Origin: Arcobacter acticola
Lineage (GTDB): Bacteria; Campylobacterota; Campylobacteria; Campylobacterales; Arcobacteraceae
NCBI RefSeq assembly: GCF_013177675.1
Contig: NZ_CP042652.1
Coordinates: 2,108,001 to 2,172,000, forward strand
DNA length: 64,000 bases
Direction: 5' to 3'
In this document: positions 24,547-46,610 of the stretch, piece after piece
Layout: every line of letters begins with the position of its first letter
Position numbering within the stretch: position 1 is the stretch's first letter
Notes under the pieces: model-generated
What the model was told of the DNA's origin: nothing
What the model saw: the letters and a program-made list of their open reading frames with translations, nothing else
Database searches by the model: none
Translations under genes and position numbers: made by a program

Positions 24547-26388
24547 ATGGGAAAAAAGATAATTTATCAGTTTATTATAATCTCTTTTTTATTAATTTGT
24601 ATTGTTAGTGCCATAACAATGTACAGTACAAAAAATAATTCAATTAAAGCATCTATTCATAATGCAGAGCTAATTTCCAGAATTGTTAAAAACGATTTAA
24701 CTTCTTATATGGTAAATAATAATGTAAAACAAATAGATAGTTATATAAATTCTATGGCTAGTATAGATAATGTTAAGAATTTATGGCTAGTTAGAGCAGA
24801 TTCTGTAAGTAATCAATTTGGAATAAACAAAAATCAAGAACCAAAAGATGATATAGATAAGAAAGTTTTAAAAACAGGAGAAATAGAATATAAATTAAAT
24901 GAAAGTTTATTATATTCTAGTATGCGTATTACTGTTCCTTATAAAGCAACATTTGATAATGGAATTGACTGTTTAAGCTGTCATACTGCATCAGCTGGTG
25001 AGACACTAGGTGCTGTCTCTATGGAGTTAGATATTAGTGAATTAAAAAATATTGGATTAGAAGCTATTTATTTAATTCCTATAATTATGATTGTAGGTAT
25101 TTTACTAATATTTTTTATTTTTAAAAATAAATTAGAGCAAGATAACTTAATTTTTGATAGCATTTCAAAAAGTTTAAGCTCTTCATTAAATGGAAATCTA
25201 AGAAAAATATCTTATTCTAAAGGATTATCAAAAGATATGATACTTTTGATGGAAAAATTCAATAGATTAATGGTAACTTTTAAAGATACATCAACAGATA
25301 TTGATAAAAAATTAAAAGGTTTTATTGGAACTAAAACAAATAAATTTACAAATCCATTAGAAGACTCAAAAGAAATAGTTCAAAACTTATCAAATTTATA
25401 TCAATTTAAAAAAGAAATTGAACTTGATAACACTAAAGAAGAGATTTATAATAGATTATCTGAAATATTTACTAATCAATTTAAGATCACAAGTTTTACT
25501 TTTATTGAAATTGACTTATCAAAACGAAAAATGACTACAGTCAAAGAAATAGGAAATACTTTTTATTGTAAAGAAAATATAGAAAATGAACCTCATTTAT
25601 GTCGAGCAGCAAGAACTGAAAATGATGTAATTACAACAGAATATCATCATACTTGTCCTTATTTTGAAAAAGTTGATAAATTTCATTATTGTATTAGTAC
25701 AAGTATTAGCAAAAATATTAATTTGATTATAAATTTTGTATTTGATGATAAAGATAAATTAGAATACTTAAAAGAAAAAATTTCTTTTATTAAAAGCTAT
25801 ATTAATGAATCAGCTCCTTCAATAGAAGTTAAACTTCTAATAGAAGCTTTACAACAATCAGCATTTAGAGATGGATTAACAGGATTATATAATAGAAAAT
25901 TCCTTGAAGAACATACAAAAAAACTTATTCCTCAAGCATTAAGAGATAAATTTAATATTGGAGTATTATTATTAGATATGGATCATTTCAAAGCTGTAAA
26001 CGATGAATATGGTCATGATATTGGAGACAAGGTATTAAAAGAATTAGCAAGAATCTTAAATGAAACAACAAGAGAATCTGATATTATCATTAGATATGGT
26101 GGAGAAGAATTCATTGTTTTACTTGTAAATATAAAAACAGAAGAACAAGCTATTTCTGTTGCAAATAAAATAAGAATTAAAGTTAGTGAAAATGAAATAG
26201 ATGTATACGCAGGAAGTAAATTAAGAAAAACTGTTAGTATTGGATTATCAATGTTTCCTGAGGATTCAAGTTCATTAGAATCTGTAATAAAAAATGCAGA
26301 TATTGCACTTTATGAAGCAAAAAGTAAAGGTAGAAATCAAGTAGTTAGATTTCAATCTGAACAAACTTCTAGCATAGATTTATTTTAA
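24547..26388 (+). CDS. membrane diguanylate cyclase with periplasmic c-type haem motif and Cys-rich GAF-like domain
   Basis: A 613-residue protein predicted to make cyclic di-GMP. It has a membrane helix at about residues 5-25, a periplasmic domain at about 26-172 carrying C142-L-S-C145-H146 (a haem c attachment motif), and a second helix at about 173-193. A cytoplasmic region with a GAF-like domain (about 285-425) follows, holding Cys341, 352, 370 and 382. The GGDEF domain begins at DGLTGLYNRKFL (442), with active site GGEEF at 518-522 and the inhibitory RxxD site (RESD, 509-512) intact. It is transcribed alone and closed by a strong hairpin. The haem suggests redox or gas sensing; this is inference. 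Confidence 0.85.
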   Translation: MGKKIIYQFIIISFLLICIVSAITMYSTKNNSIKASIHNAELISRIVKNDLTSYMVNNNVKQIDSYINSMASIDNVKNLWLVRADSVSNQFGINKNQEPKDDIDKKVLKTGEIEYKLNESLLYSSMRITVPYKATFDNGIDCLSCHTASAGETLGAVSMELDISELKNIGLEAIYLIPIIMIVGILLIFFIFKNKLEQDNLIFDSISKSLSSSLNGNLRKISYSKGLSKDMILLMEKFNRLMVTFKDTSTDIDKKLKGFIGTKTNKFTNPLEDSKEIVQNLSNLYQFKKEIELDNTKEEIYNRLSEIFTNQFKITSFTFIEIDLSKRKMTTVKEIGNTFYCKENIENEPHLCRAARTENDVITTEYHHTCPYFEKVDKFHYCISTSISKNINLIINFVFDDKDKLEYLKEKISFIKSYINESAPSIEVKLLIEALQQSAFRDGLTGLYNRKFLEEHTKKLIPQALRDKFNIGVLLLDMDHFKAVNDEYGHDIGDKVLKELARILNETTRESDIIIRYGGEEFIVLLVNIKTEEQAISVANKIRIKVSENEIDVYAGSKLRKTVSIGLSMFPEDSSSLESVIKNADIALYEAKSKGRNQVVRFQSEQTSSIDLF

Positions 26389-26913: not shown

Positions 26914-27252
26914 ATGCAACTAGATGTATCTGCAGAAGTAATATTATCTCAACTAGGATATTCAAAAAATGATGCTTCACTACAACAAGCTGAAAAAATA
27001 ATAAATTCAACAAGTAATTTTGATAAATTCTCAAAACATATTTTCACACTAAATGACCACTTAAAAAAAATGAATGCATATGTTGCACTATCAAATAAAT
27101 CTGATTATTTAAAAATCAAATGTGATGAAAATGATTCTAATGAAATCTTAGAAGAGTTTCATAATGAAGTTTCACATTGGGCAGATAAGTACAATGTAAA
27201 ACTTGAAAAATTAGATAGTAGACACATATACTATATTTTAGGTACTCACTAA
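26914..27252 (+). CDS. small protein of unknown function
   Basis: 112 residues, no signal peptide, mostly helical by composition, with an acidic central segment (KCDENDSNEILEEF). The ATG at 26914 is chosen because AGAAGGATT lies just upstream; an in-frame earlier start at 26851 would add a hydrophobic 21-residue stretch without a ribosome binding site. The family is not recognised. It converges with msrA, overlapping by four bases. Confidence 0.6.
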   Translation: MQLDVSAEVILSQLGYSKNDASLQQAEKIINSTSNFDKFSKHIFTLNDHLKKMNAYVALSNKSDYLKIKCDENDSNEILEEFHNEVSHWADKYNVKLEKLDSRHIYYILGTH

Positions 27253-27743
27253 AATATTTTTCTATAACTATGACAATAAGGCATCTTTTGATGTCTTTCA
27301 TAGTAATCTTGATGATAAGACTCTGCCTCATAAAACTTAACTAACGATCGTAAAGAAGTTGCGATTTTAAAACCTTTATTTTCTAACTCACAAATTAATT
27401 TTTCACATACTTTTTGTTGTTTTTCATCCACATAAAAAATTGCAGATAAATACTGACTTCCTATATCTGGACCTTGTCCATTAGTTTGAGTAAAATCATG
27501 GATTTCAAAAAATAGTTTTGTTAATGTTTCAAAAGAAACAATAGTTTCATCATAAGTAATCTCAACTACTTCTAAATGACCTGTTAACCCAGTACATACC
27601 ATTTCATAGGTAGGATTATCAATATGGCCTCCCATATAACCAGAAATTGCACTAAGCACACCTTCTAGCTTTTCAAAGTGATATTCAACTCCCCAAAAAC
27701 AACCCGCTGCGAAATATGCTTTTTTAATATTTTCATTATTCAT
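27249..27743 (-). CDS. msrA: peptide methionine-S-sulfoxide reductase
   Basis: Repairs the S form of methionine sulfoxide. In the 164-residue protein the active-site motif GCFWGVEYHFE has catalytic Cys15. SGYMGGHIDNPTYEMVCTG and ARTL-like family segments follow, and the tail has a YHQDYYERHQKMPYC segment with a likely resolving Cys. It shares one base with the end of msrB, so both are made from one message. There is no signal peptide, so it acts in the cytoplasm. Confidence 0.95.
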   Translation of the reverse strand: MNNENIKKAYFAAGCFWGVEYHFEKLEGVLSAISGYMGGHIDNPTYEMVCTGLTGHLEVVEITYDETIVSFETLTKLFFEIHDFTQTNGQGPDIGSQYLSAIFYVDEKQQKVCEKLICELENKGFKIATSLRSLVKFYEAESYHQDYYERHQKMPYCHSYRKIF

Positions 27744-28105
27744 TATTTTTCTTTCTTAAAATTTAAAGATATTGAATTTACGCAATGTCTTGTATTTTTT
27801 GAGGTAAGTTCTTCACCTTCAAAAACATGTCCTAGATGTCCACCACAAGATGCGCATACTATTTCTACTCTTCTTCCATCTGCATCTGGAACTCTTTTTA
27901 CAGCACCTTCTATCTCATCATCAAAGCTAGGCCATCCACATCCTGAAGAGAACTTATCTTTTGATGTATAAAGTTGAGCATCACATTTTTTACAAGTAAA
28001 AATACCCTCTTCATAAAAATCATTATATTTCCCAGAAAATGGATATTCTGTTCCTTTATTTTCTATTACTCTTTTTTCTTCATTTGTTAATTCATTGTAT
28101 TTCAT
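27743..28105 (-). CDS. msrB: peptide methionine-R-sulfoxide reductase
   Basis: Repairs the R form of methionine sulfoxide. The 120-residue protein has the zinc site C38-x2-C41 and C84-x2-C87, a GCGWPSF segment with Cys56, and catalytic Cys108 in [10 protein letters not shown]. It is the first gene of the msrB-msrA pair; together they cover both diastereomers. Confidence 0.95.
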
Positions 28106-29264: not shown

Positions 29265-29667
29265 AACTTGCTCCAAATCTATCTTCTAATCTTTTTAATC
29301 TTACATAAGAGTTTACTTTTGTAATTAACTCTATTGTAATAAATGGCTTTACAACATAATCTATTCCACCACTTTCATAAGCTTGTGAAATATCTTGAGA
29401 GGAATTTTTCCCTGATAAAAAAATTATAGGTATATCTTTTGTTTTATTATTGTTTTTTAACTCTATACAAACTTCAAATCCACTGATATCTGGCATCATT
29501 ATATCCAATAATATCAAATCGAAGCTATGTTCATCAACTAAATCAAGTGCCATTTGTCCACTCTTAGCATAAAACATTTTATAACCTTCATTTTTTAAAA
29601 TATTCATAGCCATCTGAATATTTTTTGGAATATCATCTACTATTAATATTTTGCTATTTGTTTCCAA
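29257..29667 (-). CDS. single-domain response regulator (receiver only)
   Basis: 136 residues made of one CheY-like receiver: acidic pair at 11-12, phospho-acceptor Asp55 (DLILLDIMMPD), Ser/Thr switch near FLSGK and Lys in DYVVKPF. No output domain is present. It is encoded between the hybrid kinase and the receiver-pseudokinase and overlaps both (14 bp and 8 bp), so it probably passes phosphate within this system. Confidence 0.88.
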   Translation of the reverse strand: METNSKILIVDDIPKNIQMAMNILKNEGYKMFYAKSGQMALDLVDEHSFDLILLDIMMPDISGFEVCIELKNNNKTKDIPIIFLSGKNSSQDISQAYESGGIDYVVKPFITIELITKVNSYVRLKRLEDRFGASYV

Positions 29668-32600
29668 TTTTTGCCTTTAAATTCTCAATTAGTTCTAAAT
29701 ATGTATTCATTAAATAATCTACTTTTTCTATATCAAAAGAGTTTATATTTTTTATTAACTCTTTAGAATAATTTTCCAATAAATGAATTTTTTCTTTTAC
29801 AGATAAATCATCTAATTTTTTTGCAAACTCTTCAATTAAAGAAAAATCTCCAGCGTCTTTTATATTTTTCCACTCTTCTTTTAGCTCATTTTCTAATTTA
29901 TCTAAAACAACTTTTAATCTTTGTGAATCAATAACACTAAAATCATCTATTTGAACTATCTCTTGATTTATAAAATGATATTTTAAGTATTTACCTAATT
30001 CTTCTATTAAATCATCTAATATTACAGGTTTACGTAAATATCCATCAAATCCAAACTTAGATACTTTTTCTAAATCTTTTCCCATTACAGAGGCTGTTAG
30101 AGCTATTATTGGAATATGTTTTAACTTTTCATTGCTTTTTATTATATTAGTAGCTTCATATCCATCCATAACAGGCATTCTTAAATCCATTAATATCAAG
30201 TCTACATTTATATTTCTTAATTTATCTATTGCTTCTTGGCCATTTTCTGCCATGATTAAATCTATATCAAAATCTTTGAGGCTAGCTTTTACTAATTTTC
30301 TATTTTCTTCAATATCATCAACCACTAATATTTGTGCTTTTTCAAAAACTATATTTGAAGCTAATAATTTTTGAGAGACAATCTCATCTTCAATTGAACT
30401 AATTGGAATATCTCTTAATAACACTGTAAAAGTCGAACCTATATTTTTTTTACTCTTTACTTTTATTTCACCATTCATCATATGAACTAATTTCGAACAA
30501 ATAGCAAGACCTAATCCAGTACCACCATATTTTGCAATATTTTGATTATCTGCTTGTTCGAAAGCATTAAAAATAGTTTCTAAATTATTTTCTTCAATTC
30601 CAATACCTGTGTCTTCAATGCTAAATATTAAATCTATTTTACTTTTTATATCATCTTTATAAATATTCTCAACTTTAAGTTTTATATAACCTTTTTCAGT
30701 AAATTTAATTGCATTTCCAATTAAATTAAAAAGAATTTGTCTTATTCTTACACCATCAATTATTATAAATTTTGGAATTGTTTTATCTATATCTACCATA
30801 AAAAGGATATTTTTACTTATTATTTTTGAATGGAAAATTGATTCAATTTCTAGAAATAAATTTTTGGGATTTAAAGATTCATTTTTAACTTCTAACTTTC
30901 CTGCTTCTATTTTTGAAAGATCCAAAATATCATTGATAATACGTAAGAGTGAATTTCCACCTTTTCTTATTGAACTAAGATACTCTTTATGTAAGGGATT
31001 TTTTATCTCTTTTTCTAATATTTCTGTAAATCCAATTACAGAGTTCATAGGAGTTCTTATTTCATGACTCATATTTGCTAAAAACTCACTTTTTTGTTTT
31101 GCTATATTTTCAGCAACATCTTTTGCTTTTTTTAACTCTACATTTAGTGATTTTATAAAGTTTCGTTCCTTTTCTAACTCTTTTTGTACTTTTTCTTTTT
31201 CAAGTATTTCTAATTTTAATTTTCTATTCCAATAAATTGTACCAATTAAAATAAATAATGCAAAGATAATTATTTTCCAAATTAAATCATAATCAATTTT
31301 TTCTTCATAATCTACTTGTATCCATTTTCTATAAATTTCATCTTTTTTTTGAATAGAGATATTATCTAGCAATTTATTTATTATTGAGTGTAAGTGAGTA
31401 TTATTTTTATCTATACCAAAACCATATTGGTAATTATATCCCGAAGGGCCTACTATTTTTAGATTACTTAAACTATAATTTTTACTATAATATTCAAAAG
31501 AAGGAATATCTAATATAAAATAATCAATCTGAGAATTCGATAACTCTTTTAATCCATCTAATGGATTATCAAACTCTATAATTTTTTTTATTTGAGGAAA
31601 ATCACGTTTTATCTCTTCAATTACTGAATAACCTTTTACAGTAGCTATTTTTCTGTGAGAAATTGTATTAAATGAATTTACATAATTATCATTTCTATTA
31701 TTTGCAATTATTACAATTTCAGCCCCAACATATTTATTTGAAAAATTTAAATATTCACTTCTTGTAGGAGAGTATGATATAGCATCTATTAAATCAATCT
31801 TTTTATTTTCCATTAAACTTATAGTATCAGCCCAAGAATCAGTTTTTACATACTCTAGTTTTATATTAATATTTTTAAATACCTCTTTTACTAAATCAGG
31901 AATAATACCAATATAATTGTTTTTATCATCATAAAAAGAGTAAGGAGGCCATAAAGGATCTCCTGAAATTTTAATTTTAGGATTTGCTTTTATCCAATCA
32001 AGTTCATCTTTAGTAAAAGATATTGAACTATTTTTTTCTTTTAGTTCAAAAATCCATTTTTTATTTATATTCTCTTTTTCTTTTCTAATAATAAAGGGCA
32101 TTGCTTTTTGAACAATATTAAACAGTGTTTCATTTTCTTTTAAAACAGCCATAGATAGATCTATTTTGTCAAAATCTGCTTTAAATTTAACCTCTATATT
32201 TGTATATAACTCTTTTTGAACAAAATATGAAAATACAGGCAAGTTCCCGATAAAAATATCAGCTTTACCATAAGAAACCATTTCAAAGGCTTCTTTATTT
32301 GATTTTGCAAAAATAAACTTCATATCAGGATACAACTTAAGTAGTTTTTCATGGACAAAATTACCCCTTTGAACAGCCACTACATAATCTTTTATTTCAT
32401 CAAATTTTTGAATTGGAAGCTCTTTTCTTGCAATTACCACAACATCAATATTTAAATATGGACTCGTATAGTTTAAATATTTTTCTCTATCAGTAGTTTT
32501 TGCAACGCAAGCTAGCATATCAAGTTCTTTTTCTTTTATTTTTGATATTACACTATACCAATCATTTGCTTGAACATTAAATTTCAAGCCTGTATAAAAA

Positions 32601-33532
32601 CTAAGTAAATCTAAATAATCAGAAGCAATTCCTTGGTATTTGCCATTTTCATCAAGATATTCAAAAGGTGGCCAATCAGAATCTGCACCTATATTTACTA
32701 TTGGATTTTTTTTAATCCAAAGAAGTTCATCTTCTGTAAAATTTATTTCATTATTTAATTTTTTTGATAAAACCCATTTCTTATTTATTTCATTTATTTG
32801 TTCTTCAGAAATGTTTGATAAAACTTTATTAAAAATTGTTTTTAATATATTTTTTTCTTTTATAACAGCAATTGATAATAAGGAAGGTTCAAAGTCAGCT
32901 TTTATTTTTATTTCAAGATTAGTCAATAAATCTTTTTCAATAAAATAAGAAATTGTTGGTAAATTATCTATATATAAATCTGCTTTTCCATATGATATAA
33001 GCTTTAAAGCTTCTTGATTTGATTCAACAAATACAAAATCCATATTAGGAAATTTTTTAACTAAAGAATCATAAATATAACCATTTTTTTGAACTACAAC
33101 TTTAAAATTATTTATATCTTCAAATGATTTTAAAACTAACTCTTTTTTAGCAACAACTACAATATCAAGTGTTAAATAGGGATTTGTAAAATCTAAATAT
33201 TCTTCTCTTTGGGGATTTTTAACAGCACAAGCTAATATATCTAGTTCTTTATTTTTTATCTTTTCAATGACATTTGACCAAACATCAGAATAAATATCAA
33301 ATCTTAAACCTGTTTTTTCTGATATTATTTTTAAATACTCAGATGATATTCCATTATGTACACCTAAAGCATAATAATCAAAAGGTGGCCAAGCTTTATC
33401 GACCCCTACTTTTATAACTGGATTATTTTTCATCCATTCTAATTCTTGAACCGTGAAAATTGAATTATTCTCTTTATTTATAGAAGAAAAGAGAGAAGTG
33501 AGAAATAGAATGATAAAAAAAAGGTATCTCAT
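29654..33532 (-). CDS. hybrid sensor kinase with three periplasmic substrate-binding domains (BvgS-like)
   Basis: 1292 residues. After a signal peptide (1-17) come three tandem SBP_bac_3-type domains (about 27-255, 268-495 and 508-745). Each starts with a W-(M/I)KxNPxIxxxxDxxWPPF-like segment; the first two are very alike. A membrane helix (about 755-775, IIIFALFILIGTIYW), coiled coil, HisKA domain with His823 (ANMSHEIRTPMN), an ATPase domain (GTGLGLAI present) and a receiver domain (DLILMDLRMPVMDG) follow. The last 90 residues are helical and contain no obvious Hpt histidine motif. Ligands are probably amino-acid-like solutes (inference). First gene of a three-gene operon. Confidence 0.9.
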   Translation of the reverse strand: MRYLFFIILFLTSLFSSINKENNSIFTVQELEWMKNNPVIKVGVDKAWPPFDYYALGVHNGISSEYLKIISEKTGLRFDIYSDVWSNVIEKIKNKELDILACAVKNPQREEYLDFTNPYLTLDIVVVAKKELVLKSFEDINNFKVVVQKNGYIYDSLVKKFPNMDFVFVESNQEALKLISYGKADLYIDNLPTISYFIEKDLLTNLEIKIKADFEPSLLSIAVIKEKNILKTIFNKVLSNISEEQINEINKKWVLSKKLNNEINFTEDELLWIKKNPIVNIGADSDWPPFEYLDENGKYQGIASDYLDLLSFYTGLKFNVQANDWYSVISKIKEKELDMLACVAKTTDREKYLNYTSPYLNIDVVVIARKELPIQKFDEIKDYVVAVQRGNFVHEKLLKLYPDMKFIFAKSNKEAFEMVSYGKADIFIGNLPVFSYFVQKELYTNIEVKFKADFDKIDLSMAVLKENETLFNIVQKAMPFIIRKEKENINKKWIFELKEKNSSISFTKDELDWIKANPKIKISGDPLWPPYSFYDDKNNYIGIIPDLVKEVFKNINIKLEYVKTDSWADTISLMENKKIDLIDAISYSPTRSEYLNFSNKYVGAEIVIIANNRNDNYVNSFNTISHRKIATVKGYSVIEEIKRDFPQIKKIIEFDNPLDGLKELSNSQIDYFILDIPSFEYYSKNYSLSNLKIVGPSGYNYQYGFGIDKNNTHLHSIINKLLDNISIQKKDEIYRKWIQVDYEEKIDYDLIWKIIIFALFILIGTIYWNRKLKLEILEKEKVQKELEKERNFIKSLNVELKKAKDVAENIAKQKSEFLANMSHEIRTPMNSVIGFTEILEKEIKNPLHKEYLSSIRKGGNSLLRIINDILDLSKIEAGKLEVKNESLNPKNLFLEIESIFHSKIISKNILFMVDIDKTIPKFIIIDGVRIRQILFNLIGNAIKFTEKGYIKLKVENIYKDDIKSKIDLIFSIEDTGIGIEENNLETIFNAFEQADNQNIAKYGGTGLGLAICSKLVHMMNGEIKVKSKKNIGSTFTVLLRDIPISSIEDEIVSQKLLASNIVFEKAQILVVDDIEENRKLVKASLKDFDIDLIMAENGQEAIDKLRNINVDLILMDLRMPVMDGYEATNIIKSNEKLKHIPIIALTASVMGKDLEKVSKFGFDGYLRKPVILDDLIEELGKYLKYHFINQEIVQIDDFSVIDSQRLKVVLDKLENELKEEWKNIKDAGDFSLIEEFAKKLDDLSVKEKIHLLENYSKELIKNINSFDIEKVDYLMNTYLELIENLKAKIGNK

Positions 33533-44012: not shown

Positions 44013-46610
44013 ATGAAACCTGTACTTGGTAAAATCTCATCTTTACTTTTAGGAACAACGCTTATTACATCAGCTCTGGCTGCTACTGATGGAGAATTAG
44101 CAAAAGTAATGAAAGATAGAGGCTTATCTGAAATCGATGTAGTTCGTGCTGCGAAAACGTACAATCCTACTGGGGTTAAAGATAAATATGTAGTTTTCTC
44201 ATCGGGTGGACAAAGTGGACAAATGCTTGTTTATGGCGTTCCATCTATGAGACTTTTAAAATATATTGCTGTATTTACACCTGAACCTTGGCAAGGATAC
44301 GGTTACGACAAAGACTCACTTGAAATTCTAAGACAAGGAAATATAAGAGGAAGAGAGATAAATTGGGGAGATACTCATCACCCTGCACTTTCTGAAACTG
44401 ACGGAAAATATGATGGTAAATGGTTAGTTATAAATGATAAAGCTAATCCAAGAATTGCTGTTATTGACTTAGAAGACTTTGAAACAAAACAAATTGTTCC
44501 AAATCCAGTATTTAAATCTGAACATGGAGGAGCATTTTTTACTCCGAATTCTGATCATATTCTAGAAGCAGCTCAATATGCAGCTCCATTTGATAATGAA
44601 TACCATCCTATAGAAGATTATAAAGAAACTTATAGAGGTGGAGTTACTGTTTGGAAATTTGATTCAAAAATTGGACGAATTATTCCAAAAGATTCATTTA
44701 CTCTTGAATTACCTCCATATATGCAAGATTTATCAGATTCTGGTAAAGGTATCTCTGATGGTTGGGGATTTACAAACTCATTTAATACAGAAATGTACAC
44801 AGGTGGAATTGAAGTGGGAATGCCACCAAATGAAGCAGGTATGAGTAGAAATGACACTGACTTTTTACATGTATATAACTGGAAAAAATTATATGAATTA
44901 TCAAAAGATCCTAAAAATGTAAAAATTGTAAATGATCATAAAATAATTCCAATTGAAATTGCAGTTAAAAATGATGCACTATTTTTAATTCCTGAACCAA
45001 AATCACCTCATGGTGTTGATGTTGATCCAACAGGACAATACTTAGTTGTTTGTGGAAAATTAGATACTCATGCTTCAGTTTATGATTTTAAAAAAATCCA
45101 AAAACTAATTAGTAATAAAGAATATGCAGGGAAAGATCCTTTTGGTATTCCAATTTTGGATATGAAAAAATCTTTACATGGACAATTAGAATTAGGACTT
45201 GGGCCACTTCATAATCAATATTCACCTGTTGATGGAGAAATTTATACTTCATTATATGTTGATTCACAAGTTGTAAAATGGAACTTTAAAGAATTAAAAG
45301 TTCTTGATAAAGAAAATGTTCACTATAACATTGGTCACTTAGCTGGAATGGAAGGGAAATCTGCAGATCCACAAGGTGAGTATATTATTGCACTTAACAA
45401 ATTATCAATAGATAGATTCCAAAATGTTGGTCCTTTACATCCACAAAATCATCAGTTAATTGATATTTCTGGGAAAACAATGGATTTATTAGTTGATATG
45501 CCTTTACCTTTAGGTGAACCACATCAAGCTGTTGCAATTAGAGCAGAAAAACTACATCCTCATGTTAGATATGAGATGGGTACAAATACTAAAACAGGTG
45601 AACAACATATTGGAAAAACTCTTGCAGGACAAGAAAGAATTGAGAGAAATGGTAACCATGTAACTGTATATGCTACATTAGTTAGATCTCATATTAATCC
45701 TGAAAGAATTACTGTAAATAAAGGTGATAAAGTAACTATTCACATGACTAATCTTGAAAGAGCACAAGATGAAACACATGGATTTACTGTTGACAACTTT
45801 GACGTACACGCATCATTAGAACCAGGAGAAACTTCAACAATTGAATTTAATGCAGATATTGAAGGTGTGTTTCCATACTATTGTACAGAATTTTGTTCAG
45901 CACTTCACTTAGAAATGATGGGTTATTTAATGGTTAAAGACCCAAATAAAAAATATGAAAGTGCTCAAAAAATCAAAATGCAAACAATGACACCTGAGCA
46001 GTTAAAAGCTGAATATGATAAAACAGTAGCAGTTAATGCAGCAACTGATTCAGTTATTCAAAGTGTTGTTAAATTCTTAAAAGATAATAAATTTGGTGAT
46101 CATAAAGTTGTAGCTGATTTAGTTACAGATGCACTTGATCAATATGGGAAAATTCCTGAACAGAAAAAATTATCTGATGAAGCTGTTAAAGCTGGAGATA
46201 TGGAAAAAGCTATTTTATTTGAAAATATGATTTGGCAACTTATGGTTAAAACAGCAGACGTAGGGATCAGAGCAAAAGACACTTTAGTAAGACTAATTGC
46301 TACTAAACAATCAGATGCAGCAGCGCGTGGAGAAAAAACATTCGCAGAAGGTGGATGTAATGGTTGTCACGTTATTGGTAAAGTATCTTCAGGACCTGAT
46401 TTAACAGGAGTTTTACAAAGACATGAAAATGGTGAAAAATGGGTTGCAGACTTTATTTTAGATCCAGAAAAAATGTATGGTGAACCTTATGTAAAAGGTA
46501 TGATAGATTACTTTAATCTAAAAATGCCAAACCAACATATGAGTCAAGAAGAAACTAAAGATATTATTGAATATCTAAAATGGATTGATGAAAATGCAAA
46601 CCTTTTCTAA
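44013..46610 (+). CDS. nosZ: nitrous oxide reductase, clade II (Sec-exported, with C-terminal cytochrome c domain)
   Basis: Reduces N2O to N2 in the periplasm. The 865 residues start with a Sec signal peptide (no twin arginine), which marks clade II. The seven-bladed propeller carries the CuZ histidines (DTHH at the start, EHGGAFF, later HNQYSP and HLAGME regions). The CuA domain has C624-xxx-C628-xxx-H632-xx-M635. A C-terminal haem domain, seen in Wolinella cNosZ, has C782-N-G-C785-H786 with a Met ligand probably near the end. AAGGAAAGGAAT precedes the ATG. A strong terminator follows. Confidence 0.97.
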   Translation: MKPVLGKISSLLLGTTLITSALAATDGELAKVMKDRGLSEIDVVRAAKTYNPTGVKDKYVVFSSGGQSGQMLVYGVPSMRLLKYIAVFTPEPWQGYGYDKDSLEILRQGNIRGREINWGDTHHPALSETDGKYDGKWLVINDKANPRIAVIDLEDFETKQIVPNPVFKSEHGGAFFTPNSDHILEAAQYAAPFDNEYHPIEDYKETYRGGVTVWKFDSKIGRIIPKDSFTLELPPYMQDLSDSGKGISDGWGFTNSFNTEMYTGGIEVGMPPNEAGMSRNDTDFLHVYNWKKLYELSKDPKNVKIVNDHKIIPIEIAVKNDALFLIPEPKSPHGVDVDPTGQYLVVCGKLDTHASVYDFKKIQKLISNKEYAGKDPFGIPILDMKKSLHGQLELGLGPLHNQYSPVDGEIYTSLYVDSQVVKWNFKELKVLDKENVHYNIGHLAGMEGKSADPQGEYIIALNKLSIDRFQNVGPLHPQNHQLIDISGKTMDLLVDMPLPLGEPHQAVAIRAEKLHPHVRYEMGTNTKTGEQHIGKTLAGQERIERNGNHVTVYATLVRSHINPERITVNKGDKVTIHMTNLERAQDETHGFTVDNFDVHASLEPGETSTIEFNADIEGVFPYYCTEFCSALHLEMMGYLMVKDPNKKYESAQKIKMQTMTPEQLKAEYDKTVAVNAATDSVIQSVVKFLKDNKFGDHKVVADLVTDALDQYGKIPEQKKLSDEAVKAGDMEKAILFENMIWQLMVKTADVGIRAKDTLVRLIATKQSDAAARGEKTFAEGGCNGCHVIGKVSSGPDLTGVLQRHENGEKWVADFILDPEKMYGEPYVKGMIDYFNLKMPNQHMSQEETKDIIEYLKWIDENANLF

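Follow-up and report, generated by a model that had tools for sequence, protein, structure and literature searches.

The window analysed here is a 64,000-nucleotide stretch of the Arcobacter acticola genome (NZ_CP042652.1, positions 2,108,001 to 2,172,000). At 24547..26388 on the + strand, the window carries an open reading frame with an ATG start, which encodes a protein of 613 amino acids; all features of this protein described below lie on the same strand. Two transmembrane helices were predicted at residues 5-23 (24559..24615; hydropathy 2.70) and residues 174-192 (25066..25122; hydropathy 3.08). Since K3K4 precede the first helix and K193 and K195 follow the second, the positive-inside rule places residues 24-173 (24616..25065) in the periplasm. 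This region contains the motif CLSCH at residues 142-146 (24970..24984). Residues 193-260 (25123..25326) form a linker in which a helix-loop-helix was predicted (helices 164-214 and 229-260). Because no Pfam HAMP match was found after the second transmembrane helix, we call this linker only HAMP-like. An unnamed domain at residues 272-432 (25360..25842) sits between the membrane and the GGDEF catalytic domain, which occupies residues 439-598 (25861..26340; PF00990, E 5.5e-49).

In the GGDEF domain, the active site GGEEF (residues 518-522; 26098..26112) and the product-inhibition site RESD (residues 509-512; 26071..26082) are both intact, and RESD is located five residues upstream of GGEEF, the canonical I-site spacing. 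The protein thus carries the signature of a diguanylate cyclase, a GG(D/E)EF active site together with an RxxD I-site, and is a membrane enzyme predicted to make cyclic di-GMP. An earlier sequence-only reading of this DNA had placed CLSCH between two membrane helices, facing the periplasm, and had described an intact active site and inhibitory site; our analysis agrees with it on these points. However, it missed the predicted distal haem ligand, Met55 (24709..24711; translation YMV at 24706-24714), and the whole cytoplasmic domain at residues 272-432, in which four conserved cysteines are found. Besides these four, the only cysteines of the protein are Cys18 in helix 1 and the pair in CLSCH.

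A full-length homologue of the cyclase was found in 29 of the 31 genomes of the genus, and in a search of plasmids no locus matched most of its length. Methionine sulfoxide reductase genes, read as MsrA- and MsrB-like, lie nearby at 27249-28105 on the - strand. A 1292-amino-acid histidine kinase with three solute-binding family 3 stretches and a fused receiver domain is encoded at 29654-33532, also on the - strand. The gene neighbourhood was considered as a hint to function and was rejected: rnhB and the downstream genes (thiamine-binding protein, msrA/msrB-like) stand beside the homologue in the closest genomes only (L061-L063 and L073), and the neighbours are not found beside other homologues.

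To characterize the periplasmic region, its sequence and its predicted fold were compared with known structures. A single-sequence phmmer search matched the haem c sensor domain of GSU0935 (PDB 3b42), weakly, with E 1.1e-3, and a profile of the sensor domain searched against the PDB scored 3b42 less well than the single sequence did (E 0.015). With an AlphaFold2 model of residues 1-433, Foldseek matched 3b42 with E 4.4e-5 and also CitA (1p0z). The predicted order of elements is a long first helix, strands 76-83, 114-119 and 124-133, the CxxCH segment, and a strand at 153-162. The model therefore has a Cache fold with CxxCH inserted ahead of the last strand. This is the arrangement of the sCache_heme family, which is described in a 2026 preprint as a Cache domain into which a cytochrome-derived fragment with CxxCH has been inserted, and which was widened there by PSI-BLAST and includes GSU0935 (PMC12889525). 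The canonical CxxCH is present in the window cyclase and in most of its homologues. Like GSU0935 and GSU0582 (3b42, 3b47), the cyclase has a periplasmic single-Cache domain with CxxCH before the last strand, fused to a signalling output.

The Pfam profiles gave a different picture. The window protein was not matched by PF11845 (DUF3365/Tll0287) at E up to 1, and the Pfam Tll0287-like and Mcp40H-20 models both stayed under their cut-offs. When 14 relatives were searched with PF11845, five matched weakly, the best with E 0.056. By sequence, this result argues against filing the window protein under the Pfam profile as drawn. Thus, the cyclase differs from the described sCache_heme members in being too diverged for the Pfam cut-off, and also in that they have no cysteine-GAF domain on the way to the output.

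GSU0935 is the closest solved relative and carries a covalent haem, with Met60 as its distal ligand (PMC8396549). The alignment to 3b42 begins with a stretch free of gaps; numbered there from the known Cys140 of GSU0935, Met60 coincides with Met55 of the window cyclase. Therefore, a methionine is present at the distal-ligand position in the first helix, as in GSU0935, and its ligation of the haem is predicted. We consider Met55 very likely to be the distal ligand.

Conservation of these residues was analyzed in 112 different homologues, nearly all from Campylobacterota, which were gathered by genome searches, related-locus searches and direct fetches. The haem motif (Cys142 and His146) was found in 101 of them, and CxxCH is present in all 29 full-length homologues of the genus. 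Met55 is present in 100 of the 101 homologues with the haem motif; the exception, L103, has Val at this position together with CxxCH. The remaining Met, Lys and His residues of the sensor domain, leaving out His146, are conserved at 74% or less; of all the Met, His, Cys, Lys and Tyr positions checked, Tyr132 alone (98%) comes close. A chance occurrence of CxxCH was ruled out by this near-total conservation and by shuffling of residues 24-173, in which the motif arose about once in 9,000 shuffles (p 1.2e-4); as sequence evidence, the conservation is the stronger of the two.

In two sister sequences, L068 (5878-7737) and L072 (5959-7839), both Met55 and His146 are lost, whereas the two cysteines are kept (CISCN and CINCI). 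Since their sister L067 is intact on the tree, the loss is recent. The joint loss fits the prediction of a ligand pair and is suggestive; it is one event and not a statistical result. The cysteines that remain in L068 and L072 could have a disulfide role in that branch, as would be expected if the CxxCH cysteines formed a disulfide, no haem were bound, and the domain accepted a small ligand, as other Cache domains do. For the window cyclase, this explanation is very improbable, because His146 and Met55 hardly vary among the remaining motif-bearing members, GSU0935 has a covalent haem (PMC8396549), and the attachment machinery is encoded in the cell. This machinery is a CcsBA-type haem lyase-like protein of 925 amino acids in the same genome, in which ResB and Cytochrom_C_asm are fused in one frame, and it bears out the earlier statement that the cell can mature haem c. 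The fold and sequence match to GSU0935, Met55 and the motif conservation likewise support the haem c attachment that had been read from CLSCH. On the sequence and the model, a covalent haem is very probably attached to the periplasmic domain.

Next, we considered the signal that this domain may receive. In GSU0935 and GSU0582, oxidation releases Met60 from the iron, and both NO and CO can displace it (PMC8396549). A signalling-type sCache_heme protein binds NO tightly without forming a stable O2 complex, and neither sCache_heme protein tested, one stand-alone and one HAMP-only, formed a stable O2 complex (PMC12889525). Because of this, we rank NO and redox potential ahead of O2. By analogy, the periplasmic signal is probably NO or redox. 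Redox state, NO and O2 had all been proposed as inputs to cyclic di-GMP; the first two are retained, and O2 becomes the least likely ligand. NosZ, with a C-terminal cytochrome c domain, is encoded in the window at 44013-46610, and NosL is also in the window, as expected from the N2O respiration noted earlier. The genome further encodes a cd1 nitrite reductase-like protein (587-codon frame). Since cd1 nitrite reductases are periplasmic enzymes, the cell likely has a source of NO in this compartment.

Haem c attachment to a cyclase is an already known kind of thing. At least four further membrane sensor proteins with CxxCH were found in the same genome: a GGDEF-EAL protein (859-codon frame, CISCH; L096, G000:C1:2056783-2058429), a GGDEF protein (444-codon frame, CLECH; L099, 997795-998850), a PAS-histidine kinase (1002-codon frame, CLNCH; L100, 623926-624405) and an MCP (737-codon frame, CLMCH; L097, 962300-962716). 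The idea that the window cyclase is unusual within its own genome was therefore rejected, as these four proteins, two of them with GGDEF domains, accompany it. GGDEF/EAL fusions are also reported among sCache_heme proteins, which occur in more than half of Campylobacterota genomes (PMC12889525). Thus, the sequence-only reading was mistaken in regarding haem c on a cyclase as uncommon.

Other proteins of the same or a related build were observed. A genus-wide paralogue (for example, L006-L030) is about 37% identical and has the same haem and cysteine-GAF architecture; unlike the window protein, its GGDEF domain is mostly without the RxxD site. In L106, L108 and L109, a divergent neighbour in opposite orientation is a second haem and cysteine-GAF protein with a degenerate GGDEF domain (no GGEEF), possibly a regulatory or heterodimer partner. 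In L046, L064, L069 and L070, a GGDEF protein of about 320 amino acids without the GAF cysteines adjoins the homologue on the same strand.

The cytoplasmic domain at residues 272-432 was not matched by any Pfam or NCBIfam profile, GAF profiles included, at E up to 1. The NCBIfam model LIC_11090 gave 14.7 bits on the cysteine stretch against a cut-off of 75 and was not accepted, and a PDB sequence search with the domain found nothing credible. In contrast to these sequence searches, structure comparison gave a clear GAF fold. Modelled alone, the domain reached pLDDT 87 and pTM 0.81; Foldseek matched 5w10 with E 1.1e-4, and VIA gave Z 11-14 to many GAF structures. The conserved cysteines 341, 352, 370 and 382 (25567..25692) fall, in the model, in a long loop region between GAF strands, and this loop was poorly modelled in the longer model (pLDDT below 50 at residues 366-372). 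Cys352, Cys370 and Cys382 are present in 111 of the 112 homologues and Cys341 in 103. The trio is therefore conserved better than the haem motif (111 versus 101 of 112).

Profile searches detected the domain in 76 of 298 genomes and 31 of 58 genera of the window's phylum. In the phylum to which L094, a Desulfobacterales MAG, belongs, they detected it in 24 of 198 genomes. Among the Desulfobacterota proteins that were read, the trio was found in 15 of 15 and an upstream CxxCH in none. In L094, a dCache_3 sensor takes the place of the haem domain. L094 and L143-L156 carry the cysteine-GAF and GGDEF domains behind other N-terminal regions, and their unnamed cysteine-GAF domain would merit a Pfam entry. 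Ten sequences keep the trio and have no haem motif (L068, L072, L094, L116, L125, L130, L132, L134, L136 and L137); an eleventh without the motif, L052, is a contig-end fragment. On the tree, the loss of the haem motif in L068 and L072 is clearly apart from the other losses. Conversely, L142 retains the haem motif and lacks all four GAF cysteines, which shows, at the level of sequence, that the cysteine site is not essential in every member. Since the haem and cysteine sites are lost separately, the cysteine-GAF domain is a sensor module in its own right and not a haem accessory.

This separate loss bears on the possibility that the periplasmic haem c domain is the sole sensor, the GAF cysteines merely binding a structural zinc that holds the loop, so that the protein would be an ordinary sCache_heme cyclase. 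The haem ligands are indeed well conserved, and a structural zinc is plausible in a long loop region between GAF strands. However, the trio persists both in homologues that have lost the haem motif and in Desulfobacterota proteins that have no CxxCH ahead of it; the module is thus useful alone. In addition, the fourth cysteine is absent in nine homologues, which is unusual for a four-Cys zinc site. We regard this explanation as unlikely.

Control of the cyclase by a metal-free thiol switch was also weighed. GAF-fold free-methionine-R-sulfoxide reductases (fRMsr) have their catalytic cysteines in this region of the fold as well, and fRMsr structures (1vhm, 3mmh, 3ksf and 3rfb; Z 12.7-13.7) are among the closest folds to the domain. 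The cysteines could accordingly form disulfides or react with oxidants as in fRMsr. However, many cysteine-free GAF domains are equally close (tied Z). The likeness to fRMsr was assessed at the level of the fold, and a thiol switch, too, seems rather improbable, if slightly less so than a purely structural zinc. From their conservation, the GAF cysteines are likely to be a redox or metal site; that they hold an Fe-S centre specifically is a tentative proposal, which falls a little short of an even chance.

On balance, we favour with some reserve the reading that the window protein is a transmembrane diguanylate cyclase in which both the haem and the cysteine-GAF modules sense redox or NO. The modules, motifs, conservation and fold assignments are read from the sequence, and from them we infer a dimeric cyclase with one sensor module outside the membrane and one inside. 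On the periplasmic side, a single-Cache domain would bear haem c covalently on Cys142 and Cys145, with His146 as the proximal and Met55 as the distal ligand. The reduced haem would likely be low-spin His/Met, and oxidation of the iron or binding of NO would displace Met55. The shift would travel along the continuous second helix (164-214) and the HAMP-like linker to the GAF domain and the GGDEF dimer. Inside, the GAF cysteines, three invariant and the fourth near-invariant, would hold a redox-active centre, most likely Fe-S and less likely zinc or a thiol switch, which would act as a gate on the one signal helix driving the GGDEF dimer. The enzyme would produce cyclic di-GMP, with product inhibition at RESD as a brake. 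Haem occupancy, ligation by Met55, the kind of centre at the cysteines, the signal and the direction in which it shifts cyclase activity likewise belong to the inferred part of this model. Cyclic di-GMP would in this way track respiratory conditions in both compartments at once, those of the cytoplasm and those of the periplasm, where the cue would be redox or, in denitrifying cells, NO.

Several known proteins share parts of this architecture. GSU2622 of Geobacter sulfurreducens combines a haem c motif, a GAF domain and a cyclic di-GMP-related output in one protein (PMC8396549); compared by description, it differs in being a HAMP/GAF/HD-GYP protein of the phosphodiesterase type without GGDEF. 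DcrA of Desulfovibrio vulgaris is likewise a membrane receptor whose periplasmic sensor carries haem c, but its output is that of a chemoreceptor, and it has a cofactor-free cytoplasmic PAS domain instead of a cysteine-GAF (PMC8396549). A precedent for an Fe-S centre in such a domain is the GAF domain of chloroplast sensor kinase (CSK)/Hik2, which holds a [3Fe-4S] cluster, for which only one cysteine was found as ligand (PMC6949291). CSK/Hik2 thus resembles the window cyclase in using a GAF domain with a conserved cysteine as the redox sensor of a signalling protein. It differs in its one-cysteine ligand, its histidine kinase output and its lack of a haem domain, whereas the window GAF domain has three to four conserved cysteines, known from sequence. 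In searches of the open-licence literature (Arcobacter haem cyclases; Fe-S GAF cyclases; GAF/Fe-S/NO/c-di-GMP), the architecture of the window cyclase was not described.

We therefore put forward, as a possibility that we hold more tentatively than its parts, that a widespread and undescribed class of GAF sensors with three to four conserved cysteines, probably binding Fe-S, governs diguanylate cyclases in both Campylobacterota and Desulfobacterota. Its Campylobacterota members would sit beneath a periplasmic haem c sensor, and a single enzyme would thereby combine NO or redox input from the periplasm with redox, O2 or NO input from the cytoplasm. The family supplies a cyclase readout for haem c Cache sensors, which were recently shown to behave as NO sensors. 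It also offers natural variants in which the haem ligands alone (L068 and L072) or the GAF cysteines alone (L142) are lost. The unnamed cysteine-GAF module, conserved in two phyla, is likely to act as a redox switch on cyclic di-GMP in the cytoplasm and, if both modules sense, one protein could read redox or NO signals on both sides of the membrane.
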